From Haemophilus influenzae (lineage in GTDB: Bacteria; Pseudomonadota; Gammaproteobacteria; Enterobacterales; Pasteurellaceae): 64,000 nucleotides of DNA. The position numbers and the translations under genes are program-made. Numbering within the stretch: position 1 is the stretch's first letter; each line of letters opens with the position of its first letter. The notes below the pieces were generated by a model that saw only the letters and a program-made list of their open reading frames with translations, was not told where the DNA came from and did not search any database. Below, in pieces: positions 1-40,099 of this stretch. The stretch spans positions 1,381,427 to 1,445,426 of the forward strand of contig OV298644.1 in assembly GCA_923172585.1 (NCBI GenBank), written 5' to 3'.

Positions 1-871
1 GATCAAGGGCATCACGCAAGCCATCGCCCATTAAGTTGAAAGCTAATACCAAAGATAAAATCACTAAGCCAGGAATTGTAACTAACCAGTTTGCCGCTTG
101 CATAAAACCACGTGCTTCTGAAAGCATTGTGCCAAGTTCAGGTGTTGGTGGTTTTGCACCAATGCCTAAGAAACCAAGTGTCGCGAGTTCTAAGATAGCA
201 TTGGATATTCCCATAGTCATTTGCACAATTAAAGGGGCTAAACAGTTTGGTAAAATCACAATAAACATGAGGCGTAAAATACCTGCCCCTGCCACTTTAG
301 ATGAAGTCACATAATCACGATTTTTTTCATTCATCATCGCTGCTCGAGTTAAACGCACATAGCTAGGAATCGATACCACGGCGATCGCTAAAGTGGCATT
401 GGCGAGTGATGGCTCTAAAATAGAGACGACTACAATCGTCAAAAGTAAGTTTGGAATTGCGAGCATAATATCAATTAGGCGAATGATAATTGTATCTAGC
501 ACGCCGCCATAATAGCCAGAAATCAAGCCAAGGCTGGTACCAAAGGCGCAAGATAGTAATACGATGACAAATCCCGCAAAGACGGAAATTCGCGTTCCAT
601 AAATAATACGCGAAAGAATATCTCGCCCAATATCGTCTGTGCCGAGTAAATAAGCAGGATTACCGCCCTCATACCAAGCGGGTGGCAGTAAAAGTGCGGT
701 ACGATTTTGTTCTGTTGGATCAAAAGGTGCAATATAAGGTGCGAGAATGCTGATTAAGGCAACAATCAAAATAAAAATTAAACCAATTAGCGCACCACGA
801 TTTTGTTTAAAGTAAAACCAAAATTCTTGTAAGGGTGTTTTTGGCGCGAAAGTTAAAGGCGTGTCAGACAT
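1..871 (-). CDS. dppC: Dipeptide ABC transporter permease DppC (runs off left edge)
   Basis: DppC is the second inner-membrane permease of the dipeptide ABC importer and pairs with DppB. Reading the minus strand from the ATG at 871 gives 290 uninterrupted codons; the family is about 295-300 residues, so only the last few residues lie outside the window. An N-terminal membrane segment follows a short cytoplasmic start, then a periplasmic part and the BPD-transporter core. The EAA loop is visible as ATLGFLGIGAKPP, followed by a last hydrophobic segment ending LMGDGLRDALD. It starts 14 bp after dppB stops, so the two are one transcription unit. A DNA-uptake signal lies inside at 692-700. Confidence 0.93.
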   Translation of the reverse strand, partial: MSDTPLTFAPKTPLQEFWFYFKQNRGALIGLIFILIVALISILAPYIAPFDPTEQNRTALLLPPAWYEGGNPAYLLGTDDIGRDILSRIIYGTRISVFAGFVIVLLSCAFGTSLGLISGYYGGVLDTIIIRLIDIMLAIPNLLLTIVVVSILEPSLANATLAIAVVSIPSYVRLTRAAMMNEKNRDYVTSSKVAGAGILRLMFIVILPNCLAPLIVQMTMGISNAILELATLGFLGIGAKPPTPELGTMLSEARGFMQAANWLVTIPGLVILSLVLAFNLMGDGLRDALD

Positions 872-885
872 AATTTCTCCTACAA

Positions 886-1887
886 TTAATGACGGATACG
901 CGGATTGACCACACCGTAAAGTAAATCGACGGTTAAATTCACCACAATAATAATGGTTGCAATAATCAGTACAGAACCTTGCAACACAGGATAATCACGG
1001 GCTTGAATGGCATCAATAATCCATTTTCCAATCCCCGGCCAAGAGAAAATGGTTTCTGTGAGAACTGCACCAGAAAGCAATTGACCTACAATTAATCCCA
1101 CCACAGTGACAACAGGAATTAACGCATTACGCAATGCGTGAACAATAACAATTCGAGTATAGCTTAAACCTTTTGCCTTTGCCGTGCGAATGTAATCTTC
1201 ACCTAACACTTCCAACATCGCAGAGCGTGTCATACGCGTAATAATGGCGAGAGGAACTGTGCCTAAGACGATGGCAGGAAGAATTAATGATTTCACCGCA
1301 TTTTCGAAGGCACCAGAAACACCTGAAAGCCAGCTATCAATAAGCATAAATCCTGTTGGTGTATCGATCCAAAATTCATTATCTAAACGCCCACCTTGTG
1401 GCAAACCGAGTTGTGGCGAAACATATAAAATTAAAATTAAACCCCACCAGAAAATCGGCATAGAATAACCTGTGAGCGATGCAGCTGTAACGGTGTGAGA
1501 AATCCAACTGTCTTTTTTTACTGCGGCAATCGTGCCTAAAATTATTCCACCTAATAATGACCAAAATAACGCAAAAAAAGCTAATTCAGCGGTAGCAGGA
1601 AAAAGCGTAAAAAATTCACTAAGAACAGGTTGTTGAGTGCGGAACGATGCACCGAAATCCCCTTGAATTACATTGCCAATATAGTGGAAATATTGCTGAT
1701 AAAGAGGTAAATCTAAACCCAATTGGTGCATCATTTGTTGATGTACTTCTGCCGTTAAGCCACGTTCCCCCATCATAATTTCCACAGGATCACCGGGAAT
1801 AAAATGCACAAGGGCAAAGGTAATAAGAGTAATGGCAATAAAAGTAGGGATCACCATTAAGATTCGTTTGAATACAAATTTAAACAT
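886..1887 (-). CDS. dppB: Dipeptide ABC transporter permease DppB
   Basis: DppB is the first permease subunit of the dipeptide importer in the inner membrane. The 333-residue length matches the family (339 in E. coli). The start MFKFVFKRILMVIPTF is the typical DppB/OppB N-terminal membrane segment; HFIPGDPVE near residue 28 is the family signature after it. The EAA loop region reads RTAKAKGLSYTRIV at about 235, and the protein ends LLYGVVNPRIRH. It is followed directly by dppC. It lies downstream of uvrD on the same strand but is separated from it by a hairpin terminator, so transcription of dppB probably starts close to its own ATG, or the substrate-binding gene lies elsewhere. Confidence 0.95.
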   Translation of the reverse strand: MFKFVFKRILMVIPTFIAITLITFALVHFIPGDPVEIMMGERGLTAEVHQQMMHQLGLDLPLYQQYFHYIGNVIQGDFGASFRTQQPVLSEFFTLFPATAELAFFALFWSLLGGIILGTIAAVKKDSWISHTVTAASLTGYSMPIFWWGLILILYVSPQLGLPQGGRLDNEFWIDTPTGFMLIDSWLSGVSGAFENAVKSLILPAIVLGTVPLAIITRMTRSAMLEVLGEDYIRTAKAKGLSYTRIVIVHALRNALIPVVTVVGLIVGQLLSGAVLTETIFSWPGIGKWIIDAIQARDYPVLQGSVLIIATIIIVVNLTVDLLYGVVNPRIRH

Positions 1888-1904
1888 TCCATCACTCGTA
1901 GATA

Positions 1905-1938
1905 ATAAAAGTGCGGTAAAAATTCACCGCACTTTTCA
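1905..1938 (-). terminator. Uptake-signal pair hairpin after uvrD
   Basis: Two inverted uptake-signal cores (1909-1917 and 1926-1934) form a stem with a short AT loop and end in T residues on the minus strand. It lies just downstream of uvrD and before dppB, so it probably terminates uvrD transcription. Confidence 0.75.
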
Positions 1939-1976
1939 AAGAAATTAATCGGTAAAAAATATAATACTCTTGAATT

Positions 1977-4160
1977 CTACCGCACTTTTTCCAATTTTGC
2001 CAAATGCGCAATCAACCATTTAATGCCTTGCGCTTGGAATGCTATTTGTAAACGTGTGTTATTTTCAGATCCTTCCACATTAATCACTGTGCCGAAACCA
2101 AATTTTTCGTGTTTAACTTTTTGACCCATTTTCCATTCATTTTCGACCGCACTGGTATTCGACAATGAACCGACTTTTGCTAGGTTCATCGCACGCGTGA
2201 CTGTCCCTCGTAAACGAATTTCTTGGATACATTCTCTCGGTAATTCTGCGATAAACCGTGATGGCAAATGGCGTTCTTCTTTGGCATATAATCGACGGCT
2301 TTCCGCATAAGAGATGGTCAGTTTTTTCTGCGCGCGAGTAATACCGACATAAGCTAAACGACGCTCTTCTTCTAAACGTCCGGGTTCTTCAAAAGAACGA
2401 AAACTTGGGAATAATCCTTCTTCTACGCCCACCATAAATACACGAGGAAATTCTAAGCCTTTCGCAGAGTGCAACGTCATCATTTCTACACAAGATTGAT
2501 GCGGCGAGGCTTGTTCTTCGCCAGCTTCTAAGGAAGCGTGCGTTAAAAAGGCAGTGAGTTCGGTCATTTCTTCCGCATTATCAGGTTTGATAAATTCACG
2601 GGTTGCGGTAACTAATTCTTCCAAATTTTCAATACGCACTTCGCCTTTTTCGCCTTTTTCTTGTTGATACATTTCATATAAGCCCGAATGTTTAATCACA
2701 AAATCAGTTTGTGCGAAAAGCGGCATTTCTGCGGTATCAAGTTGTAATGAATTAATTAATTCTTGGAAACGTAATAAGGCTGTGGAGGCTCGCCCTGCCA
2801 ACATATTTTCTTGTGTTGCGACTTGTACTGCTTGCCATAAGGTAATTTGGCGTTCACGTGTTAAGTTACGCAATATATCTAAAGTGCGGTCGCCAATGCC
2901 ACGGGTTGGCGTATTAATTACACGCTCAAAAGCCGCATCATCTTGACGATTATTAATCAAACGAAGATAGGCTAACGCATCTTTAATTTCTTGACGTTCG
3001 AAGAAACGCATACCGCCATAAATACGATATGGAATTTGACAACGAATTAAGGCTTCTTCAATAACCCGTGATTGGCTATTACTACGATAAAGTACAGCGC
3101 AATCATCAAGTTTTCCGCCATGTTCTACCCAATCCTGAATTTGTGAAGCGACAAATTTTGCTTCATCTAATTCATTAAAGGCAGAATAGATGCCCACAGG
3201 ATCGCCTTTTTCACCCTCTGTCCATAAATTTTTACCAAGACGATCACTATTGTTTGCAATTAATTCATTTGCGCTGTTTAGGATATTGGCGGTAGAACGA
3301 TAGTTTTGTTCAAGGAGAATTGTCTCGGCTTTGAAATCTTTCAAGAATTTTTGGATATTTTCAATTTGCGCACCACGCCAACCGTATATAGATTGATCAT
3401 CATCGCCTACGATCATGACTTTGCCTGTTTTTCCAGCAAGAATTTTAATCCACTTATATTGAATTTTATTGGTGTCTTGAAATTCATCCACCAAAATATG
3501 CTGAAAACGTTGTTGATAACGTTGCAAAATTAATGGTTTTTTCTCAAATAATTCATAGACCCGAATTAATAATTCAGCAAAATCGACCAACCCTGCGCGA
3601 TCGCAAGTGTCTTGATAGATCTGATAAATTTTAATCCATTCACGTTCTTGGCGATCATTAAAATCTTCAATATCATTTGGTCGCAAGCCTTCATCTTTTT
3701 TGTTATTGATGTACCAACAAGCCTGTTTAGGCGGAAAAGCTTTTTCATCAAAATTATGTAATTTTAATAATCGTTTAATTAAACGAAGTTGATCTTCTGA
3801 ATCTAAAATTTGGAAATCTTGTGGCAATCCCACATCTAAATGATGAGCTCGCAACAAACGATGAGCAATGCTATGGAAGGTGCCAATCCACATACCAAAT
3901 AATTGATGTTGTGCGTGTTTGGCAAGGGTAGATTGAATACGATGACGCATTTCTGCTGCGGCTTTATTGGTAAACGTCACCGCCATAATGCTGCCTTCAG
4001 AAATATTTTCGACCGCAATTAACCAAGCAATACGGTGCGTCAATACACGCGTTTTGCCCGATCCTGCACCAGCTAGCACTAAGTGATTACCAAGAGGAGC
4101 AGCTACGGCTTCGCGTTGTTTATCGTTGAGTCCGTCAAGTAATTCAGAAATATCCATCAT
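1977..4160 (-). CDS. uvrD: DNA helicase II UvrD
   Basis: UvrD is the 3'-5' superfamily 1 helicase that removes the excised oligonucleotide in nucleotide excision repair and unwinds nicked DNA in mismatch repair. The 727 residues match the family length (720 in E. coli). Visible motifs in order: Walker A GAGSGKT at residues 31-37, motif II VDEFQDTNKIQ, motif III DDQSIYGWRGA, motif IV QNYRST, motif V TLHSAKGLEFPRVF, and motif VI VGITRAQKKL. The C-terminal Tudor-like tail with KFGFGTV is present. The start has two consecutive ATG codons and either could be used. A DNA-uptake signal overlaps its last codons (1979-1987). Confidence 0.97.
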   Translation of the reverse strand: MMDISELLDGLNDKQREAVAAPLGNHLVLAGAGSGKTRVLTHRIAWLIAVENISEGSIMAVTFTNKAAAEMRHRIQSTLAKHAQHQLFGMWIGTFHSIAHRLLRAHHLDVGLPQDFQILDSEDQLRLIKRLLKLHNFDEKAFPPKQACWYINNKKDEGLRPNDIEDFNDRQEREWIKIYQIYQDTCDRAGLVDFAELLIRVYELFEKKPLILQRYQQRFQHILVDEFQDTNKIQYKWIKILAGKTGKVMIVGDDDQSIYGWRGAQIENIQKFLKDFKAETILLEQNYRSTANILNSANELIANNSDRLGKNLWTEGEKGDPVGIYSAFNELDEAKFVASQIQDWVEHGGKLDDCAVLYRSNSQSRVIEEALIRCQIPYRIYGGMRFFERQEIKDALAYLRLINNRQDDAAFERVINTPTRGIGDRTLDILRNLTRERQITLWQAVQVATQENMLAGRASTALLRFQELINSLQLDTAEMPLFAQTDFVIKHSGLYEMYQQEKGEKGEVRIENLEELVTATREFIKPDNAEEMTELTAFLTHASLEAGEEQASPHQSCVEMMTLHSAKGLEFPRVFMVGVEEGLFPSFRSFEEPGRLEEERRLAYVGITRAQKKLTISYAESRRLYAKEERHLPSRFIAELPRECIQEIRLRGTVTRAMNLAKVGSLSNTSAVENEWKMGQKVKHEKFGFGTVINVEGSENNTRLQIAFQAQGIKWLIAHLAKLEKVR

Positions 4161-4771
4161 AAACTATCTTTAATCTGTTTAAATTTACAGTTATTATAGT
4201 CCCATCTATCTTGTGAAACAATAAGATTTGTGAGTATATCAAAAGTAGGGTAGAACATTTTAATAATAATATTAAGCGGGATTCTCCTATATCCTTAAAC
4301 TCAACATCAAAACCATATGCTTTGAAAGCTATTTTTATACTATTTATAAACAAACTTTTAATTCGTTTACCTCTCATTCCTAAAATGCAAGGTTTCTCAT
4401 TTTTCCAAAAATACCCATGATGAACAATAATAGCATAGGAATGTTGTTTAATGACTTAATCAATACTTGATTTGCTAGGATTCCTGTAATGATTTTATAA
4501 ACATTTGCTTTTCCTTCTACTTGCACGCCATTTTACGCATAGTCGGTGATTTTGTCCGAATTAAGTTTTAGGTTAAAAAGTTACTCAAATTCAATGTTAT
4601 TCATAATTAATACAAATAAGAAAGGGTGAGATATGGTACAAAATTCCAAAAAATGGTTAGCACAAAGGAATGGGAGAAGTGTGCTATCCAAGTTTCATTA
4701 TGATCATTCTCTAAAGTAGAAAACGTCATATACTAAATTATATACTGATCAAAAAATAATATTTCCTTCTA
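4161..4771. other. Gene-poor stretch between uvrD and queE
   Basis: No convincing gene. A 77-codon minus-strand frame (4144-4377) overlaps the uvrD start and resembles nothing I know. On the plus strand a purine-rich ribosome-binding sequence precedes an ATG at about 4633 that opens only 28 codons (start MVQNSKKWLAQRNG) before TAG. The base composition is very AT-rich. This looks like the remains of one or two lost genes, but I cannot name them. Confidence 0.4.
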
Positions 4772-5407
4772 TTACTCAATACCAATCAATTTATGTGTTT
4801 GTAAACTTAGCTGCCATTTAGGTTTATTTGAACGTTGATTCAATTGACCAAGTAAAGTGATAGTCTCAAGTAAATTCATTTTCCCATCAATTTCACAAGG
4901 TGAAAGATAGTAATTCTTTGCTTTTATTTTTTGCTCGATCAATTCACAAAATGATGGCATATTACTGTCCATTACAATACGTACTTCATTTGCAAATGGA
5001 ATGCAACGCTTTTCATACTTATGAGCATAAAGGCTCTTAGGACTCGTCGCAATATAATCTATTTGTGCAGGAATTGCTTTTAGACCATTGGTTTCAATTG
5101 CAAGAAAATAGCCATCTGATTTAAATTGCTCAAGTAAGTATTCAATTTTTGGTACAATTGTTGGCTCACCACCTGTGATGATAATATTCTTTGACGAAAA
5201 TGACCGCACTTTTTCTAGAATTTGTGATACAGACCAGCGTTTAAAATTATTATAAGGTGTATCACACCAAGGACAGTCTAGATTGCATTTACCAAATCGT
5301 ACAAAAACACTTGGCATTCCCGTATTGAAGCCCTCCCCTTGCAGACTTTCAAAAATTTCGACTATGTTAAAGTTCGGTTCAAAATCATGATATTTTTCCA
5401 TCAACAT
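4772..5407 (-). CDS. queE: 7-carboxy-7-deazaguanine synthase QueE
   Basis: QueE is the radical-SAM enzyme that converts 6-carboxytetrahydropterin to 7-carboxy-7-deazaguanine in queuosine and preQ1 synthesis. The 211 residues fit the family. After the N-terminal IFESLQGEGFNTGMPSVF comes CNLDCPWCDT, the cysteine cluster binding the 4Fe-4S centre, then TGGEPT, the SAM-contacting glycine-rich motif. The ATG directly follows the queD stop, so queC, queD and queE form one operon with abutting or overlapping ends. The start has a second ATG two codons on (MLMEK), which is equally possible. Last gene of the operon. Confidence 0.93.
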   Translation of the reverse strand: MLMEKYHDFEPNFNIVEIFESLQGEGFNTGMPSVFVRFGKCNLDCPWCDTPYNNFKRWSVSQILEKVRSFSSKNIIITGGEPTIVPKIEYLLEQFKSDGYFLAIETNGLKAIPAQIDYIATSPKSLYAHKYEKRCIPFANEVRIVMDSNMPSFCELIEQKIKAKNYYLSPCEIDGKMNLLETITLLGQLNQRSNKPKWQLSLQTHKLIGIE

Positions 5408-5833
5408 TTACTCCTGATACTCGCAAAATGAAGTTGGGGTTTCCCATAAACGAATGGATGATATGGACAGTTGTTCATCATGTTTTAAACGATTAAAAAT
5501 AAAACGAGCTATTTCTTCTGCCGTAGTTCTAAAGGGAACACCAAAAGTTTTTGAGTTTAACTTTTGCAATAGAGTGGCAATTTGGCTTTCTCGCTCATTG
5601 GTTTGATCATAAATAAAGGCGTGATCCATCGGATCTAAAATAACTTTTTTCACAATAGACTTTAGATCTGAAAAATCAATGACCATTGCTTTTTTTGCAC
5701 CTGATTCATATAAGTCACCCGAAATTTCAACTTGTAATTTATATGTGTGTCCATGTAAATTTTGACATTTCCCATCATGTCCATCTAATAAATGTGCCAT
5801 GTCAAAGCTAAATTCTTTGGAAATTTTAAACAT
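5408..5833 (-). CDS. queD: 6-carboxytetrahydropterin synthase QueD
   Basis: QueD converts dihydroneopterin triphosphate to 6-carboxytetrahydropterin, the first committed step towards preQ0. The 141-residue protein shows the PTPS-family zinc ligands: one histidine in [14 protein letters not shown] and two in NLHGHTYKL. The catalytic cysteine is in GKCQNLHGH. It also has the MVIDFSDLK and PMDHAFIYD motifs and a C-terminal [10 protein letters not shown]. Its start overlaps the end of queC by 8 bp (ATGTTTAA), which suggests translational coupling. The premature stop in queC may therefore reduce its translation. A uptake-signal core sits just downstream, in queE (5203-5211). Confidence 0.93.
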
Positions 5834-6509
5834 TTTTTCTACCTTTTTGAGTCAAATATTTCTTTAGACCTTTATTGCGTAAAATACAGCTTGGGCATTT
5901 TCCGCATCCACCTTCGATGCCTTCATAGCAAGTGTGAGTATGTTTTTGTACATAATCTAATACGCCTAATTCATCAGCAAGTTGCCAAGTTTGGGCTTTA
6001 GTGAGATACATTAATGGTGTTTTGATATTGAATTGATAATCCATAGCTAAATTTAATGTGACATTCATTGACTTGATAAACACATCTCGGCAATCTGGAT
6101 AACCGCTGAAATCTGTTTCACATACGCCAGTGATAATATCTTGAATGCCTTGGCCTTTCGCATAAATCGCTGCATAAAGTAAAAATAGGGCATTGCGACC
6201 ATCAACAAAAGTGTTTGGCAATTCACTCTCTTTTTGCTCAATATGCGCCTGTTCATCCATTAATGCATTATGCGTGATAGCTTTCATAACAGATGTATCA
6301 ATCAAGGTTTGTTTAATGCCGAGATCTTGCGTAATGGCGCGCGCCTTTTCTAATTCAATAGCATGACGCTGCCCATATTGAAAGGTAATGGCTTCTACGT
6401 TTTCTTTGCCGTATTCAGCAATAGCTTAGAATAAACAAGTCGTGGAGTCTTGTCCACCTGAAAAGATGACAATCGCTTTACGATCGTGGTTTGGATTGAA
6501 AATATTCAT
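5826..6509 (-). pseudogene. queC: 7-cyano-7-deazaguanine synthase QueC, interrupted by in-frame TAA
   Basis: QueC is the ATP-dependent enzyme that turns 7-carboxy-7-deazaguanine into preQ0. The full frame from the ATG at 6509 is 228 codons, the right length (227 residues). The N-terminal P-loop FSGGQDSTTC is visible, and the C-terminal zinc cluster reads [15 protein letters not shown]. Codon 28 (6428-6426) is TAA where the family usually has glutamine, so a single C-to-T change would explain it. No frameshift is present. Translation could restart at an internal ATG (6305), but that would lose the P-loop. It is either a true null mutation or a sequence error. It is the first gene of queCDE and is preceded by a preQ1 riboswitch. 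Confidence 0.85.
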
Positions 6510-6514
6510 ATTTT

Positions 6515-6550
6515 ACCTAGTTTTTTATTGTAGGAGGTTTGCGAACTACG
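6515..6550 (-). promoter_or_regulatory. PreQ1 riboswitch, class I, in the queC leader
   Basis: On the minus strand the leader reads CGTAG, a loop TTCGCAAACCTC, then CTAC, then AATAAAAAACTAGG, 6 nt before the queC ATG. This matches the preQ1-I architecture: a short stem, a C-rich loop, and an A-rich tail whose final AGG pairs back with the loop. The AGG is also the only plausible ribosome-binding sequence of queC, so ligand binding would hide it and reduce translation. Known family members control queuosine genes in the same way. Assignment rests on pattern recognition only. Confidence 0.8.
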
Positions 6551-6664
6551 GGGGGTATTCTAGTGGGGAAGTTCTATTTTAGCAAGACAAGTGAAATATT
6601 TCGTTGGATGTGAAGTCGTTGTGCTACAATTCGCAGGTTTTTAATTTAGCAAAAAGGTTTACTT

Positions 6665-6808
6665 ATGAAAAAATGGTTGTTGATTATCGCAGGCGCGTTG
6701 ATTATTTCAGCTTGCGCAAATAAGGATGTGTATTTTAACGGTGCAGAAGGTTCGCATTCAGGTGTTAAATTTGATAAAGATTCTCGCCAATGGGGATTGA
6801 ATCAATAA
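6665..6808 (+). CDS. Small lipoprotein of unknown function
   Basis: A 47-residue secreted lipoprotein. The N-terminus MKKWLLIIAGALIISAC is a signal peptide with lipobox ISAC, so the mature protein would be only about 31 residues, anchored by its cysteine. The mature part (starting CANKDVYFNGAEGSHSG) is hydrophilic with no family I recognise. It is divergent from queC across a 155 bp promoter region and ends in an uptake-signal hairpin terminator. A corrupted second copy lies at 9321-9466. The ribosome-binding sequence is AAGG 10 bp before the ATG. Its coding potential is supported by the signal peptide and the terminator. Function unknown. Confidence 0.75.
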   Translation: MKKWLLIIAGALIISACANKDVYFNGAEGSHSGVKFDKDSRQWGLNQ

Positions 6809-6843
6809 AAAAGTGCGGTTGATTTTTAACCGTACTTTACATT
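6809..6843 (+). terminator. Uptake-signal hairpin after the small lipoprotein gene
   Basis: An uptake-signal core (6811-6819) is followed by an inverted copy with one mismatch (CGTACTT in place of CGCACTT). The pair forms a stem directly after the lipoprotein stop codon. Confidence 0.65.
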
Positions 6844-6932
6844 GTAGATATTCTTTTATAATTTAGATTTTTTATTTTCACAATTATTGAGGTTATCAAT
6901 AAAATCTCATAATTGTATTTTGATTTTAATAA

Positions 6933-7307
6933 TTAAATAATCGGTATTAAGGCCTCAACTTCATAATCTAAATGAGCTAATACGGAATTTTCCATTGTTA
7001 GTAAACTATTGAAGTAATCATCCTCAGCTGTTAATACTTCACCCGTACCGAAATGACTGTTAGTTAATTTATAAGACTTATCACCACCTATTTCAACGAT
7101 ACTTGATCTATCTTTACAAGTAATGAATTAGCCCATATCAATATTAAATACATTCGGAATTTGGTGTAATTTATCTTAATTGATAATGCTTTGTCCACGT
7201 TCAATTTTGGCATATCCATTTTGCTACATCGAAAGATTTTCTGCGAATTCTTCTTGTGACCATTGATTGAGTTCTTTCATTAGTCGAATGTTATCGCGAA
7301 ATTCCAA
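6933..7307 (-). pseudogene. Decayed XRE-family HTH regulator (three in-frame stops)
   Basis: A 125-codon minus-strand frame without any frameshift encodes a recognisable Cro/C1-type DNA-binding protein. The start codon is TTG where relatives have ATG (FRDNIRLMKELNQWSQEEFA, then NGYAKIERGQS). Stops replace residues 28 (TAG), 44 (TAA) and 60 (TAA), the first inside the helix-turn-helix. After them the frame stays open to a natural end at LDYEVEALIPII. The coherent reading on both sides of all three stops shows a former gene that has collected nonsense substitutions. Such small regulators are often next to toxin or phage genes, but no partner remains here. Confidence 0.75.
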
Positions 7308-7432
7308 TCAGTTACCTTAAAGTGCGGTTTTAAGCAGTGGCAAATAAGTTTTAGACAAAGTTCCTTAGAGGTACACCACTGGAGTGAAGTAAAACAGACA
7401 CGATAAATTTATACAATCTTGAGGACTTTTTT

Positions 7433-8174
7433 ATGAAAATAACATTTACTACAGCATTATTAGCAACAGCAGTAATGGTGAGATTAACTGCTTGTGATTA
7501 AGGTGTTACTAATGTTATGAATATCAATTCAACTAGTCAAGTTACAGTAATAACGGTCGCAATGAATACAGTTTCATTAACTCATGATATTTCACTACGG
7601 ACGGATACTAAAACTGCTTTTCTTCATTCTGCTATTAATTCACATAATTTAGATTGCACATCAACAAAACGTATTCATGAAGCTATGAATGAAACTGCAG
7701 ACGACTTTAAATAATTATCAGCAATAGATGTTCTTAGTGCATCTGCAATTTTTTCTATTTGTGAGAAATTTCATGTTATCCATAACGTTAATCCAACAAA
7801 ATACAATCCCATTTACAATGTTCAAGTAATTATAAATTTTATACAATTTTAGTTTCATCATCTGCTGATGCTCCAATATGATTTGACGAAAATTAACCTC
7901 TCAATTTGATGTGAATTTTGCTGATAAAACCAGAATTGAAATATTAAATGTTCAGAATGAAACTATAGATTGCATATTAGCTATCGTATCAGAAAACAGT
8001 TATTCTAATCGAGCAACATCCCCTGATGCTACTAATAATTAAGTCGTAAAGATAAAATTCGATGAAAAACATGATATTGGTTTATCAAGAATATTAAAAA
8101 CAAATACAGTTACAGATAATAATAATGAAGTAGGGATCATTAGTACTATGGATGAAACGAAAATAATACAATAA
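7433..8174 (+). pseudogene. Decayed AT-rich lipoprotein gene
   Basis: A GAGG ribosome-binding sequence precedes ATG at 7433, which opens a lipoprotein signal peptide MKITFTTALLATAVMVRLTAC. A TAA stops it one residue after the cysteine (7499-7501). The frame reopens and meets further stops at 7712-7714 and near 7848. After about 7899 a second frame reads coherently (FDVNFADKTRIEILNVQNE) with one TAA near 8041 and a natural end at 8172-8174. This looks like a former secreted protein of about 240 residues with several nonsense changes and at least one frameshift. No family recognised. The region is more AT-rich than neighbouring core genes, suggesting acquired DNA. Confidence 0.6.
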
Positions 8175-8191
8175 TGTTATTTATTCAGATA

Positions 8192-8509
8192 ATGAAAAAT
8201 ACAATAGTCTTTTTTTCACTATGTTTAATTAGTTCCAATATTTATAGTGAAACTAGAGCAATTAATTATAATTAATCTGATATAAAACGAATTCCATCAA
8301 TAATAAAAATGTTATTGCAGGATGCCATTGATGAAAACAATATTATTGCACTAGAATCTTTATTGATAAATCACCAGAGATTACATAATGCTAGAATTAA
8401 TATAACTGCCATTGCGAAATTTAAAATTGATCAATTCCAGTCTAATAATTGTCAAAATAATAAATCTTTAAAAAATTTTCAATTTGCTAAATTATTATTT
8501 AATTTTTAG
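8192..8509 (+). pseudogene. Decayed small secreted protein
   Basis: An ATG at 8192, 17 bp after the previous remnant ends, opens the signal peptide MKNTIVFFSLCLISSNIYSE. An in-frame TAA at 8273-8275 interrupts after 27 codons; the same frame then runs 78 more codons to TAG at 8507-8509 (SDIKRIPSIIKMLLQDAIDE and a basic, asparagine-rich tail). If the TAA was CAA the product would be about 105 residues, exported, hydrophilic and AT-rich in its coding. It may have been co-transcribed with the preceding lipoprotein remnant. No family recognised, and no partner gene explains its role. Confidence 0.55.
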
Positions 8510-9320
8510 ACACTTCATTTTTACATTATAGAACAGTACTTAGGCGTTTTAACCGCAAGAGAACGTTCGCAATTTTCCTACACGTGCGAATTGTTTGCAA
8601 ACTAAGTACGTGAATAATACGCCTAATCATCAGCATGTTGCCAAGTTTGGGCTTTAGTGAGATACAATAATGGTGTTTTGATATTGAATTGATAATTCCA
8701 TAGCTTATTAATTTGATGTTCACTTGAATTGATACACAGCATCTCCGCAGTATCTGCATATCTGCGAAGAACCTATATTGCACATATTATTGGAATCATC
8801 ATAATTATGTTGCTATCGCTAAACGCACTTAATAAGGCTAAAAATACAAAAATACAACATATGAATTCGCATTCATACCCTTTTATGAGCGTCAATCATG
8901 CGCCTGTTCATCCATATAATGTGCATATGGTGATAGAGCTCATAACAGCATATATCTATCAAAGGATTGGTTAATGCCGACCGAACTTGCGTAATGCCAG
9001 CTACCTTTTCTAATTCAAGCATGACGTCGAAATTGAACAGTTAAGTAGCTGCTGCCACGTTTTCTTTGCCGTATTCAGCAATAGCTTAGTATAACCAAGG
9101 TGAGGAGTCTTGTCCACCTGAAAAGATGACATACTATACAATATGGCTTTGATATGAAAATATTACTATTACCTTAACTTTTTTATTGGGGTTATGCAAC
9201 TACGGGGGTATTTAGTGGGGAAGTTGCATTGTAACAAGACAAGGATATTATTTCTGTTGGTGGGATGTTGTCGTTAGCTACAATTCGCAGGTTTTTAATT
9301 TATGCAATAAGGTTTACCTT

Positions 9321-9466
9321 ATGAAAACAAGATTGGCTGTATTTAGATAGTACGCCGATTGTTTATTTCAGCTGGTGCAAATAAGGATGTTATTTTCGGT
9401 GCAGAAGTTTTCGCATTCAGGTTAAATTTGAGAAGATGCTCGTCCAATGGGAGTTTGAATCCATAA
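9321..9466 (+). pseudogene. Corrupted second copy of the small lipoprotein gene
   Basis: The ATG at 9321 and its upstream AAGGTTTACC match the lipoprotein gene at 6665. The reading frame is broken by insertions and deletions after about 8 codons. Recognisable blocks are GCAAATAAGGATG, GGTGCAGAAG and the end of the gene before the uptake-signal hairpin. It cannot make the same protein. Confidence 0.7.
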
Positions 9467-9468
9467 AA

Positions 9469-9500
9469 ACAGTGCGGTTGATTTTTTAACCGCACTTTCA
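9469..9500 (-). terminator. Uptake-signal hairpin downstream of ilvE
   Basis: An imperfect core (CAGTGCGGT) and a perfect inverted core (9489-9497) surround an AT-rich loop. On the minus strand the stem is followed by T residues. It lies 25 bp after the ilvE stop and probably terminates ilvE; it is the copy-2 version of the hairpin at 6809. Confidence 0.65.
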
Positions 9501-9524
9501 AGTTCGACTTCTATTGAGTAGAAA

Positions 9525-10556
9525 TTATTCTACTTTCACAATCCAGCCTTCAGGTGCTTCGATATCACCGAATTGGATGCCTGTTAATTCATCATAAAGA
9601 CGACGGGTAACAGGGCCTACTTCAGTTTCTGAATAGAATACGTGGAATTTTCCGTTGTGTTGAATGCCGCCCACTGGAGTAATCACCGCCGCTGTACCGC
9701 ACGCACCCGCTTCTACGAATTGATCGAGTTGATCGATATACACATCGCCTTCAATAGCTTCCATACCTAAACGCTCTTTTGCGATATGTAAAAGAGAGTA
9801 TTAAGTGATACTTGGTAAAATAGATTCTGATTTTGGTGTGATGAATTTATTGTCTTTTGTGATCCCAAAGAAGTTTGCCGCACCGACTTCTTCAATTTTG
9901 GTGTGAGTTTTTGGATCTAAATAGATTGCATCCGCAAATTTACGTTCTGGCGTACCTTGTTCTGCGGCTAATTCGTGTGGAAGTAAGCTTGCTGCGTAGT
10001 TCCCACCCACTTTCACACCACCAGTGCCCATTGGTGCAGCACGGTCATAATCAGTCGTGATAAAGTTTGATGGAGCCAAACCACCTTTGAAGTAAGCACC
10101 CACTGGGCAACAAAAAACAGAGAAAATAAACTCTGGTGCCGTTTTCACGCCGATATTTTCGCCCACGCCAATTAAGAATGGACGTAAGTATAAGGTTGCA
10201 CCAGAACCGTAAGGACCTAACCAATTTTGGTTAGCTTTAACCACTTCTTTACATGCACGCACGAATAATTCAGTTGGTACGCGTGGCATTAAAAGACGGT
10301 CTGCGGTACGCTGCATACGCTCTGCATTTGCTTGCGGGCGGAATAAGTTGATTGAACCATCTTTGCAACGGTAAGCCTTTAATCCTTCAAAACATTGCTG
10401 ACCGTAGTGAAGAGCGGTTGAACCTTCGTGAATATGTAATGTGCTATCTGTAGTGAGTTTTCCTTCGTCCCATTTGCCATCTTTCCAGTGAGCGATGAAG
10501 CGGTAATCTGTTTTAATATAACTAAAACCAAGGTTATTCCAGTCTAAGTCTTTCAT
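9525..10556 (-). pseudogene. ilvE: Branched-chain amino acid aminotransferase IlvE, interrupted by in-frame TAA
   Basis: IlvE is the PLP enzyme for the last step of isoleucine, leucine and valine synthesis. The full frame is 344 codons, the expected length of the class IV aminotransferase subfamily. Visible are [28 protein letters not shown], the PLP-lysine region [14 protein letters not shown], and after the stop IEGDVYIDQLDQFVEAG. Codon 252 (9803-9801) is TAA between SIT and YSLLHIAKE; relatives have lysine or arginine there. No frameshift accompanies it. The 251-residue product would lack the C-terminal PLP-binding part (GTAAVITPVGGI) and should be inactive. Could be a real auxotrophic mutation or a base-call error. 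Confidence 0.85.
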
Positions 10557-10730
10557 TTTACTTCCTTAATATTATTTTTTGAATGAAATTTCGCTTAATC
10601 TACACCATTCCTGAAGTGATTTAAATAATAAATTCTCGAAATGATGCAATTTTTAGCCAACTAAAAAGGAATAATGAAATTTTGGAAACAGGGCAGGAAA
10701 TAACGATATAGTTATGCTAAAATCGGGATG

Positions 10731-10904
10731 AAAAAACGCCACTCAATGAGAGCAGCGTTTAACCAAATCGGTTTAATAATATACAGGAAGTAAATGAGTA
10801 ACAAATTGTTACTCAAGTTCGGTTTCCCGAACTATATGCAAACACAACATCATACTTAAGTCTGAAACTCATTAACTAGTAAGGAATTACCAATCATTAA
10901 GTAT
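10731..10904 (-). ncRNA. gcvB: GcvB small regulatory RNA
   Basis: Between ilvE and gcvA, divergent from gcvA as in enterobacteria, the minus strand carries the GcvB hallmarks. These are the GU-rich target-binding block GATGTTGTGTTTGCA, a hairpin TTCGG-GAAA-CCGAA, a second hairpin GAGTAACAATTTGTTACTC, the conserved TTACTTCCTGTA, and a terminator stem (AAACGC to GCGTTTTTT). GcvB is an Hfq-dependent sRNA that represses many peptide and amino-acid transporter mRNAs, classically dppA and oppA. GcvA activates it when glycine is high. The dpp operon lies 9 kb away in this window. The 5' end is inferred from the promoter. Confidence 0.88.
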
Positions 10905-10910
10905 GGTTGT

Positions 10911-10939
10911 ATTGTAAGGAAAAGGGTAGGAAAGGACAA
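10911..10939 (-). promoter_or_regulatory. Promoter of gcvB
   Basis: On the minus strand TTGTCC is separated by 17 bp from TACAAT (10916-10911), close to sigma-70 consensus. The expected start is near 10904. It lies about 100 bp from the gcvA start on the other strand, so a GcvA operator would sit in between or overlap it. Confidence 0.75.
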
Positions 10940-35508: not shown

Positions 35509-38248
35509 TTAGAATTTATAGTTTAAACTCAGAATATAAGTTCTTCCACGTGCAAAGTTATAAAGCACGGTTTTATCTTTTCCTCCATCTTCACAATCAC
35601 TACTTTTACTACAAATTGAATCATTTAAACTTGAATAATAACGTTGCGAAGCCGCGTCATTTCCAGCATCTAATGGATCAACATAACGTTTATCTAATAG
35701 ATTTTGTACTTCCGCTTTAATAATCAAATCTTTGATTGGTTCATAGCTGACGTGTAAATCTAAAATAATCGGTTGTTTTTTAATCTCTTCTGTTTTTTCA
35801 CGGCATAGTAAGTTCTGTCGCCCGCAGTATATTTTTCATAGCGAGAGCCATTGATATATTCTTCTTCAATTGTCGCACGTTTACTTTTTCCATAATAACG
35901 AGCTGCCATACCTAAGGTTAATTTTTTATCAAACCAGCGTGTACCAAGCTCTAATCTGCCGTAGTCTTTTGGTAGCATTGAAACACGAGATAAGCCATAA
36001 CCTTGTTTCAAAATATCTTCTTTTGAAGCATTATTCGGACGTGGGCTGGCATCGGCATAATTGGTTGGCTGATTAGTGCGTTGATAAGCGTAAGAGACAT
36101 TCGCAAAAAAACGTCCCATATCATAATTAAGCTCTAACTCAGCACCGCTTTTTTCACGATAGGTTGATAATTTTGATGAGCGATGGTAAAGCGAAAACGA
36201 GTACTGTTTGCCCACGTAGGTACAACGCCATTTCTCCACCAAACACCGTAAACATTATGGATATAGTTTTTAATAAAGCTACGATAACCCACTAATTTGA
36301 TACCTAGCACATCGTCTTGAGTGAATAGACCTTTTTTATAAGTATTAAAGCCTAGTTGATAGGTGTCAGATTGTTCAGGTTTTAATGCCGTGTTTACCCC
36401 TGCATCAGACACTTGAGAGAAAAACATCTCTTGAATATTCGGCATTCTGTGTGTGCGTGAATAAGTGAAAAATGGCATAAAATAATCGCTTAGCTCTGCA
36501 CTTAATGTAGCGGAATGATTGAATGCCTTTTTATGCCCTGATGTATGCAAAATCGGTTCATTAATTTGCTTCGTTGTATTTTCATATCCAACATACTCAC
36601 CATTAAACGCATAATGGATAAAATTCACGCTGTAATTTAAATGATAAATGCCTTTAGAAAGTGCGGTATCAAAATACACGGTTTTAAATTTTTGCTTGCC
36701 AGAAGGTTGTAAAATCACTGAACGTTGTGGCAGTAAATTACGATCACCTTTAAATCGTCCTAAATTGCTGTAAGTACCTTGATCATGTGAATCATCGTTA
36801 TAAAACAAACTTAATTCTTCTGGAAAACGGTTTTTACTGTATTCATTGGTAAAATAGTTAAAACCTAATGTGGTTTTTAAATCGATTTCTTTTGGCAACA
36901 AGAAAGTATGGCTGTTGTTTATATCAACAATATTTGCGACATTTTTGGTAATAAGTTTGTCTGCCACTCGCCAGCCAGCAAAAAAACCACCCTTAGGATA
37001 AATGGTTTTACCAATGTTATGTGCAGCCATTAAATTAAGATCAAGATAGTTGTTATTATTGAAGTTATAATTGACTTGGTAATTACGGTTTTCAATTTTG
37101 CGAGAACCAATTTTATTATCCAATGTACGTATTTGCGCTCCTAAATTTTGGTGATCATCGCCATATTCAAATTTTAATAAATGGCTACGAGAACGAGATT
37201 GCAAACTACCTGGTTCAATAGGGGCGACGCTATATTGATCTTTATTATCTTCAAATGATTTGTCGGTTGCTTTAATTCCATCATTACCGTTTTGGAGCTC
37301 GTCAATATTCTCAGGTTTTTTTTCTCGTTTAAATTTTTTTAGAATTTCTTGTCTAGTCTTTGCAGCAGATGCATCGATAATAACTAATAACTCAATCTCT
37401 ATTATCATCTAATCTAATTCTGGTTTGTTACAAGACCAATGTTTTTTGCTTAAATCAGGTGCCCATTGCCCTTCAGAATCTAAAATATAACCTGCATTGC
37501 GGAAATAGGCTTCTTTTTCTTTCGCGAGAATATCCTGCCCTAATGATGCTAATCGTTCTCCGCCTCCGATACGATAATCTTGAGATACTTCACGTTGGCT
37601 ATAACCATACACAACGCCTACATAGCCACCATTATCAAGCCATTTTCTGCCTGCAGCCATCGTCATAAAATTGGATTTAGTGGCATTGCTTCCTGTCATT
37701 CCTTTCAGAATAATGCCAAATGGTTTGTCATCGGTAATAACATCATTAACGCCTAATGTTCTAAAATTAGCACTGCCTGCTAACGCATTTATACCGCTTG
37801 ATCCTGAAAAGTTGCTTTTATTAACATCTACACCTGCAATAAAATTAGGATCGATTGCCGCACCAAATTGGGAACTTCCGCCTGATTGACCTGAGTCTAA
37901 GGCTGTAGAATAGAAGGTCTGGGTTACACCATCAACCATCGTATTGACACGGCCTAATCCATTTTCGCCACGAATATTTACAGAAACGACACCCGAGCCT
38001 TTATCTTGTTGAGTAAATGCACCAGGGATACTTCGAATGACTTGGTCAATGGTTTGTGTTTCCTTAAAGACATTTTCACGTGTACTTTTGGCTTTGGCTT
38101 CAGTGAAAGGTTTTTTATCGTTTGATATAACTTTTTCCACTACATCAATTTGTCCTAATGTTTCTTCGGCTAGAGCTTGTGTAATCGTCATACCAATCGT
38201 ATTAATTAGGCCAAGTGTAATTAAATTTAATTTTATAGCTTTCTTCAT
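35509..38248 (-). pseudogene. hup: TonB-dependent haem/iron receptor Hup, broken at three places
   Basis: An outer-membrane TonB-dependent receptor of about 910 residues, matching the haem-utilisation protein (Hup) of H. influenzae. It has a signal peptide (MKKAIKLNLITLGLINTIGM), a plug domain (SVNIRGENGLGRVNTMVDGV) and a barrel ending in YNFARGRTYILSLNYKF. It is disrupted three times. At 37409-37411 an in-frame TAG lies in a locally scrambled stretch. Near 36149-36154 an A run of six (minus strand) needs seven. Near 35793-35798 another A run of six needs seven. Between breaks the protein reads coherently, so either it is a real recent pseudogene or the frameshifts are sequence errors. A Fur box precedes it. 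Confidence 0.85.
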
Positions 38249-38268
38249 TATAGTTCCTATTTATTTTT

Positions 38269-38287
38269 GAGAAATATTATGATTATC
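38269..38287 (-). promoter_or_regulatory. Fur box upstream of hup
   Basis: GATAATCATAATATTTCTC on the minus strand matches the 19 bp Fur box at 14 positions and sits 21-39 bp before the receptor ATG. This indicates iron-dependent repression. Confidence 0.65.
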
Positions 38288-38460
38288 CATTTTATTAAGA
38301 GGGATCTCAAGGAATGATTTAATAAATTTAATGAAAATAGCTAAAAATAATAAAAAAATTAATTTTTAGAGAGAAAATACGTTTAGAAGATAGAGAAAAA
38401 GAAAGTGTGGTTTTCGCTAAATGGATAAATTCATTCGCAAAATCAACCGCACTTTAAAAT

Positions 38461-38492
38461 AGGAAATGACCGCAAAAGTGCGGTCATTTTTG
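38461..38492 (-). terminator. Terminator after lldP with uptake signal
   Basis: ATGACCGC and GCGGTCAT (38466-38487) pair tightly around AAAAGT, with T residues on both sides. A second uptake-signal core near 38450 lies beside it. Confidence 0.75.
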
Positions 38493-38501
38493 GCGTGAAT
38501 T

Positions 38502-40099
38502 TTATAGATTATAAAATAAAGGTACTAAGAACAGCGCGCCAAGTGCGGCAATGATACCGTAAATGATCATAGGTATAATGGTTTTCTTAATAATTGTGCC
38601 TTCTTGGTTTGAAATATTTAACACTGAACTTACCGCTACAATGTTATTTATACATACCATATTCCCCATTGCCCCACCAACAGATTGTAAAGCAAGAACA
38701 AGTGCGACAGAAATGCCTGTTGTTTCTGCGGTAGAAAGTTGAACACTACCAAATGTTAGGTTGGATACGGTATTTGAACCTGAGAAAAAGGATCCAATCG
38801 CGCCTAAGAAAGAGGAGAAAATAGTCCAGTTACTACCAGAAATTTCAGCAAAAGTTCTACCTATAATTTTTACCATAGAATGTTCGCCACCCACTAACAT
38901 TAGGTTTACCATCACTAAGGCACCAATTAAGGCAATAAATGGATTTTTAGATTGTTGTAAACTTGATACAAAAATCTGTTTAACATTTGAACTGGAAATT
39001 TTAAAGACAGGAATCGCAATTAGTACTGTAATGACAAATGGAATCAATGCAGGTACGTAAAGAAGTTTATAGCTTGATGAAACATTTGAGCCAAAAATAT
39101 TTTTTAAGCTAAAGATTAAACCTTTGCTAATTTCAAATAATCCTAACGAACCTAATGTAGTTGAGAACCAAATAGTTGCGTCATTCATCATTGCTTTGAA
39201 TGGTAATTGATGAATACGAGTCACAATTAAAAATGCAATAAGTAAACCTGTCGGGAATAATGCTTTAACTACTTCTCCCGTACTTACCGCATTATTATCA
39301 AGGGTATTTGTTACTTTTGCTAAACCAATATTGCGATTAGCAGCCCATACAGAAATAAATAAGCCGATTGCCCCCCAACGAGTGATGGAAATTCGTAATT
39401 GACTTGAGCAATCAAGAAATAAGGTACTACACAACCCAGTACGCTAATATAGATAAATACGATGTTTTTACGAATATCATCCCAATTTACTAAGATACGA
39501 AGTGCTAATAATGGGATAATAAGTGCAGCAATGGAGTGTATAAATGCTGTAATAGACCCAATTTCTAAAATCATATCTTCTGATAATTTTAAAGCACCAA
39601 AACCAAACCAAGTTGGTGTACCTACCGCACCAAAGGATACGGGAACTGAGTTCATAATAAGTGCCAACATCGCCACTTTTAATGGATGAAAACCTAATCC
39701 CACTAAAATAGGTGCAGCAATTGCCGCTGGTGTACCAAAACCACTTGCTCCCTCGATCATAAAAGCAAACGCCCAACCAATAATCATTAATTGTGCAACG
39801 GGATTTGGATTAATATTTCCTAGCCATTTTCGCATAATATTTGTTGCGCCTGAAATTTCAGAGAAACGGTTAAAGAGAATCGCACCAAAAATTACTGTAA
39901 TAGGTGTTTGTACCGCAATAATTGCAGAAACAACATTTGCACTAATAGTGACAATATCTGTATTAAAGTGTAAAAGATGAACACCCATAACTAATGTCGC
40001 AACCCAAGGTAAGGCAACATAAGAAGGTAGCGCGTTTCTTTTTACCATAAGATAAATCAGTAAAACGATAGGAAAAATACTTAGAATAAAAGACAGCAT
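38502..40099 (-). pseudogene. lldP: L-lactate permease LldP, frame broken at a G run
   Basis: LldP imports L-lactate with protons. The two overlapping frames (39320-40099 and 38502-39434) are the N- and C-terminal halves of one protein; adding one base gives exactly 532 residues, the expected H. influenzae length. N-terminal half: MLSFILSIFPIVLLIYLM, then EGASGFGTPAAIAAPILVG, the family signature. The frames join at FPSLVGG-AIGLFISVWAAN, where the G run (39376-39371 on the minus strand) has six bases and seven are needed. C-terminal half carries the SGSNTVSNLTFGSVQ motif. At least 12 hydrophobic segments are present. Either a real null mutation or a base-call error. Confidence 0.88.

Follow-up and report, generated by a model that had tools for sequence, protein, structure and literature searches.

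A type I preQ1-I riboswitch upstream of a queC frame that carries a stop codon in a Haemophilus influenzae assembly

A known riboswitch, the preQ1-I type I riboswitch, was found in its usual place in a 64,000-nt stretch of Haemophilus influenzae contig OV298644.1 (GCA_923172585.1, forward strand, positions 1,381,427–1,445,426; hereafter, the window). The genes directly 3' of this leader are queC, queD and queE. The first of them carries an in-frame stop codon in the assembled sequence, which is attributed here to ordinary gene decay or to an assembly error. The riboswitch class is already known and the RNA itself is not novel; the class was nevertheless correctly read from the raw sequence.

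The PreQ1 leader and its structural support

According to the cmscan analysis with Rfam 15, the minus strand of the window contains a match to the PreQ1 family (RF00522) at positions 6511–6555, covering model positions 1–45. It scored 43.6 bits, above the gathering threshold of 39, with an E-value of 1.5e-5 when the whole window was searched and 1.2e-7 when the search was confined to 501 bases. The sequence-only reading had placed a class I preQ1 riboswitch here on the minus strand and had named a covariance search as the check; this search gave a significant match with a score well above chance, and the claim is borne out. The match is the sole PreQ1 in the genome. The only other match of the window above a curated Rfam cut-off was the GcvB small RNA, located upstream of ilvE (10730–10920, minus strand, 122.2 bits).

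As for the subtype, type I is marked by UU after the P1 5' strand, UC before the P1 3' strand and a C in the tail, as described in PMC11625349. In the window, the P1 5' strand GUAG (6546–6549, minus strand) pairs with CUAC (6530–6533, minus strand) and is followed by UU (6545–6544). The P1 3' strand is preceded by UC (6535–6534), and the AC that marks types II and III at this place was not found there. In addition, an alignment of 35 leaders (29 distinct) was constructed from the window, four other loci of the genus and 30 loci taken from the best family-wide matches, which is no random sample of the family. The UU, UC and tail C of the window were invariant in all 35 leaders, and the 45-nt motif was identical in both other genomes of the same species (G005 and G006).

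Among the 29 distinct rows, 97.2% of the P1 cells were paired. The P1 pair 9–24 was G-C in 26 rows and A-U in three, which is a two-sided change; three of the five P1 pairs never varied, and the outermost one was unformed in four rows, including that of the window. In P2, the pair A17–U37 was invariant. The pair C15–G39 was standard in 17 of the 29 rows, six of them changed on both sides, and non-standard in the other 12; P2 of the published type I structure includes non-canonical pairs (PMC8752633). The whole structure paired 92% of cells as compared with 21–46% for its slid versions. None of 500 shuffles equalled the percentage paired or the covariation score, whereas 153 of them matched the number of doubly changed pairs and all 500 that of further pair types. 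Judging by these alignments, the relatives seem to back helix P1, yet the covariation support is thin. Folding of the leader alone as a single strand was uninformative (z of 0.31).

A promoter-like sequence, TTGCTA-17-TAGAAT, is located just upstream of the aptamer (6557–6585, minus strand) and is weak when taken alone, the promoter scan having found two sites against 1.5 expected in shuffles. In 26 of the 35 PreQ1 loci, a TANAAT sequence is found no further than about 60 nt upstream, a count made without a shuffle control.

The closest known system is the H. influenzae type I RNA (Hin), which binds preQ1 with a KD of 52.9 nM and N of about 2; type I RNAs, that of H. influenzae among them, bind two stacked preQ1 molecules (PMC8752633). 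As described in PMC8752633 and PMC11625349, Hin shares the class, the subtype marks and the species group with the RNA of the window, and at this level of description the two RNAs do not differ. The same two sources tie type I switches to queCDEF operons; unlike the Hin system as they describe it, the window has a stop codon in the downstream queC. According to PMC8752633, a crystal structure of a type I RNA is available for Carnobacterium antarcticum/antarcticus (Can). All pocket and P2 residues named there (U6, U7, C8, G9, C10, A11, A12, U16, C17, C18, A30, C31, U32, A33 and G34) were found in the window when a constant offset of 5 was assumed; Can belongs to another phylum, and the likeness covers the residues named in that text. 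Another comparison is the type III preQ1-I riboswitch before yhhQ of E. coli, which, like type I, has a class I pseudoknot and translational control (PMC10622847). Type III differs in having AC before the P1 3' strand and full burial of the Shine-Dalgarno sequence, in contrast to the window with its UC and a downstream queC (PMC10622847, PMC11625349). The literature, as far as the portions consulted extend, yielded no account of such a switch before a broken queC, and absence from print is not claimed.

The que operon and the reach of the switch

The queC frame occupies positions 5826–6509 on the minus strand, with the start codon ATG at 6509–6507 and, six nucleotides before it, the ribosome-binding AGG at 6516–6518 (minus strand). 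It had been suggested that this AGG lies inside the pseudoknot. In the type I structure that has been published, P2 takes in the first two bases of the Shine-Dalgarno sequence, and the suggestion holds for these two bases and not for the whole AGG.

The frame of 227 residues is interrupted by TAA at codon 28 (6428–6426), so that the first gene is indeed broken in the sequence, as had been read from the letters. Beyond the stop, the frame encodes 199 aa with a PF06508 match (234 bits). A SGGQDS sequence is encoded by codons 17–22, and the stop splits it from the remaining protein; the motif and the matching domain do not lie in one polypeptide. We take SGGxDS to be the N-terminal loop motif of QueC. 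In a comparison with G005, G006 and G007, the stop was found in this genome only. It is in the record, and it may or may not be in the organism.

The two following genes on the minus strand are open. The queD gene (5408–5833; PF01242, 119 bits) has its own AAGG at 5845–5842, and queE (4772–5407; Radical_SAM, PF04055, 47 bits) its own AGGAG at 5415–5411. The start of queD overlaps the end of queC by 8 nt, and the queD–queE spacing is 0 nt. The queE product is 100% identical over 211 aa to those of both G005 and G006.

Very probably, this is a standard type I switch acting on queC translation in a queC-queD-queE operon of the H. influenzae/H. aegyptius group, kept because the lesion is recent or erroneous, and any influence of it on queD and queE is at most indirect. 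At high preQ1, the leader would fold into an H-type pseudoknot. The pseudoknot would sequester the beginning of the queC Shine-Dalgarno sequence and reduce queC translation, as published work on the class, including the H. influenzae RNA, suggests; a table in PMC11625349 gives indirect Shine-Dalgarno occlusion as the mode of control for type I. The assembled queC would end after 27 residues and give no working QueC, and the switch presumably persists with no new job, the lesion being recent or erroneous. As to use of the pathway, PMC11239077 reports that queuosine genes of H. influenzae are up-regulated in infected nasal epithelium; this agrees with intact strains using the pathway.

It had been proposed that the riboswitch should still control queD and queE. 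These genes could follow queC through operon coupling, since the end of queC contains the queD start and queE follows directly on queD. However, type I acts on queC initiation, about 600 untranslated nucleotides would lie between the stop and queD, and queD has its own ribosome-binding site; the proposal is possible and unsupported, and any control of queD and queE by the switch would be indirect, by polarity or coupling. With a stop at codon 28, both genes would probably feel polarity more than the switch. A stronger version, in which the 27-codon leader frame left from queC now lets the switch gate queD and queE, appears very improbable. The 8-nt overlap and the 0-nt spacing make coupling plausible, but the untranslated stretch and the separate ribosome-binding sites of both genes argue against such gating. 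Also against it, we know of no place in this pathway to which the queD and queE products would lead without QueC.

The blended stretch and other broken genes of the assembly

The reality of the stop is uncertain because the adjacent stretch 6839–9500 is blended and other genes of the assembly are broken. The stop may be absent from the organism, as a base error in an assembly with a blended stretch and other single-lesion genes, with queC intact and the operon ordinary; we give this a substantial chance, somewhat short of even.

The first evidence for such an error is that, in 6839–9500, the que operon and a Slam locus are blended column by column. The genes lpp and ilvE adjoin each other in G005 and G006; in the window, this stretch separates them. 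Its right part, 8555–9520, scored 967 against queC-leader-lpp and 567 against the Slam-gene stretch upstream of ilvE in G009, where the gene product matches PF04575 (SlipAM, 269 bits). These two references scored 115 against each other, and 30 shuffles of either against this right part reached 110 and 102. Within 8615–9490, the positions unlike queC-lpp had the letter of the Slam locus in 81.0% of cases (115/142) versus 63.5% (466/734) at positions agreeing with queC-lpp (Fisher p 4e-5); a shuffled Slam sequence gave 53%, at the highest 64%. The left part, 6839–7430, mainly resembles the HTH gene of the Slam locus (score of 746, shuffles reaching at most 106) and shows hardly any trace of what lies left of queE (126 against 118). 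The middle, 7431–8556, matches queE-queD (524 against 181) and, weakly, the lipoprotein/Slam start of relatives (176 against 121, 153 against 135, 137 against 135 and 257 against 210, in four overlapping tests).

The best reading of 6839–9500 is thus a consensus of two ilvE-anchored templates, with and without an HTH-lipoprotein-Slam island; such a mixture points to a consensus artefact because recombination makes patches and not a base-by-base blend. A decayed tandem duplicate of queC at 8615–9500 was rejected, the sequence matching the Slam locus where it departs from queC. This queC-like copy carries TTA at the site matching the queC stop, and it lends the stop no independent support because the Slam sequence is identical at that site. 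A search of 6839–8614 against the plasmid and phage collections (distant mode, E 1e-5) gave no match in either.

The second line of evidence for an error concerns gene breaks, which were counted over 40 kb for genes of at least 100 aa, with matches below 80% identity and edge cases dropped. Breaks were in excess in the window, where four of the 31 G006 genes were broken versus 0/34 in G005. The G005 genes were broken in 6/33 cases in the window versus 2/36 in G006, and one of the 34 window genes was broken in each of G006 and G005. In three other 20-kb stretches, the share of broken genes among those of G006 (at least 80 aa) was 1/8, 3/16 and 5/13, the last being a divergent stretch, and 7, 1 and 3 further G006 genes, respectively, had no match. 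Outside the window, QueA, found in all ten genomes of the genus, is frameshifted by one base within an A run in this genome only (G000:C1:308853-309904) and is unbroken in the nine others.

Against an error, the operon-bearing part of the window, 1–6838, is clean, with 98.99% identity to G006 and one gap in 6839 columns, and the substitution spectrum resembles that of G006-specific changes. The comparison of 262 window-specific with 318 G006-specific changes, alike in spectrum, also led to the rejection of a mutator or of damaged DNA as the origin of the stops. The blended stretch beside the riboswitch warns that the broken genes here need read-level support before biology is built on them.

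Several further lesions were seen in the same assembly. The ilvE gene (9525–10556, minus strand) has one in-frame TAA at 9803–9801 and is open in G005 and G006. Two further G006 genes (912 and 532 aa) are broken at 35512–40099 of the window. At 4144–4526 on the minus strand, there are short frames like pieces of a gene, presumably nif3-like, that is open in G002 and G007. Elsewhere in this genome, L189 8870–17965 has 84% DNA identity to G006 with many stops in the matching genes and is possibly a second blended stretch.

Distribution of the switch and of the pathway in the genus and the family

The stop may also be real. It would then belong to an early stage of losing de novo preQ0 synthesis, in which import (YhhQ) as well as QueF, Tgt and QueH are retained and the riboswitch is left as a remnant; we hold this evenly balanced between true and false. 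It is favoured by the pattern in the genus. In G001–G004 and G008, five of the ten genomes, PreQ1, queC and queD were not found, and the queE-like matches were weak (29–31% identity, near E 8e-4). G007 has the riboswitch and an open queC (L118 8210–9672), an orphan queC, since a search of that genome for queD and queE gave no match. The YhhQ-type transporter, Tgt, QueF and QueH families are present in all ten genomes without inner stops, which also favours a real stop. Genomes of the genus thus often lack preQ0-synthesis genes and keep the salvage genes; PMC11130926 deals with the salvage of Q precursors in human-associated bacteria. Against a real stop, the queA frameshift would make salvage pointless in this genome unless it is itself an error.

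More evidence on the remnant was obtained from a survey of 140 Pasteurellaceae genomes, in which the PreQ1 search used stricter filters than the queC search. The queC gene was found in 121 genomes and PreQ1 was scored in 114, in 97 of them above the cut-off. All the scored PreQ1 belonged to genomes with queC (114/121) versus 0/19 without it (Fisher p 4.8e-18, a descriptive value because the genomes are related). A lasting remnant is thus unseen elsewhere, which speaks against the stop being real with the switch as its leftover; the switch being seen only alongside queC argues that its position ahead of a broken queC is either a recent state or an apparent one only.

A broader scheme is a stepwise dismantling of preQ0 synthesis now under way in Haemophilus, from the full que operon found in G005, G006 and G009, through the riboswitch with queC alone (G007) and the riboswitch with a broken queC and open queD-queE (the window), to the loss of queC and queD in five genomes. 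The switch would then outlive its gene for a time and might gate the leftover 27-codon frame. We regard this scheme as rather unlikely. As it stands, the comparison shows preQ0 synthesis kept or lost across one host-bound genus, and such patchy loss is of modest interest.

Seven of the 121 queC genomes were without a scored PreQ1 (G013, G031, G070, G113, G117, G120 and G126). Three of them, G117, G120 and G126, probably correspond to Rodentibacter loci L040, L045 and L047, in whose leaders the motif can be made out visually, a long insert preceding the tail, and the queC match of G031 covers 52 residues only. Five other genomes of the family (G025, G026, G027, G028 and G087) have two PreQ1 matches each.
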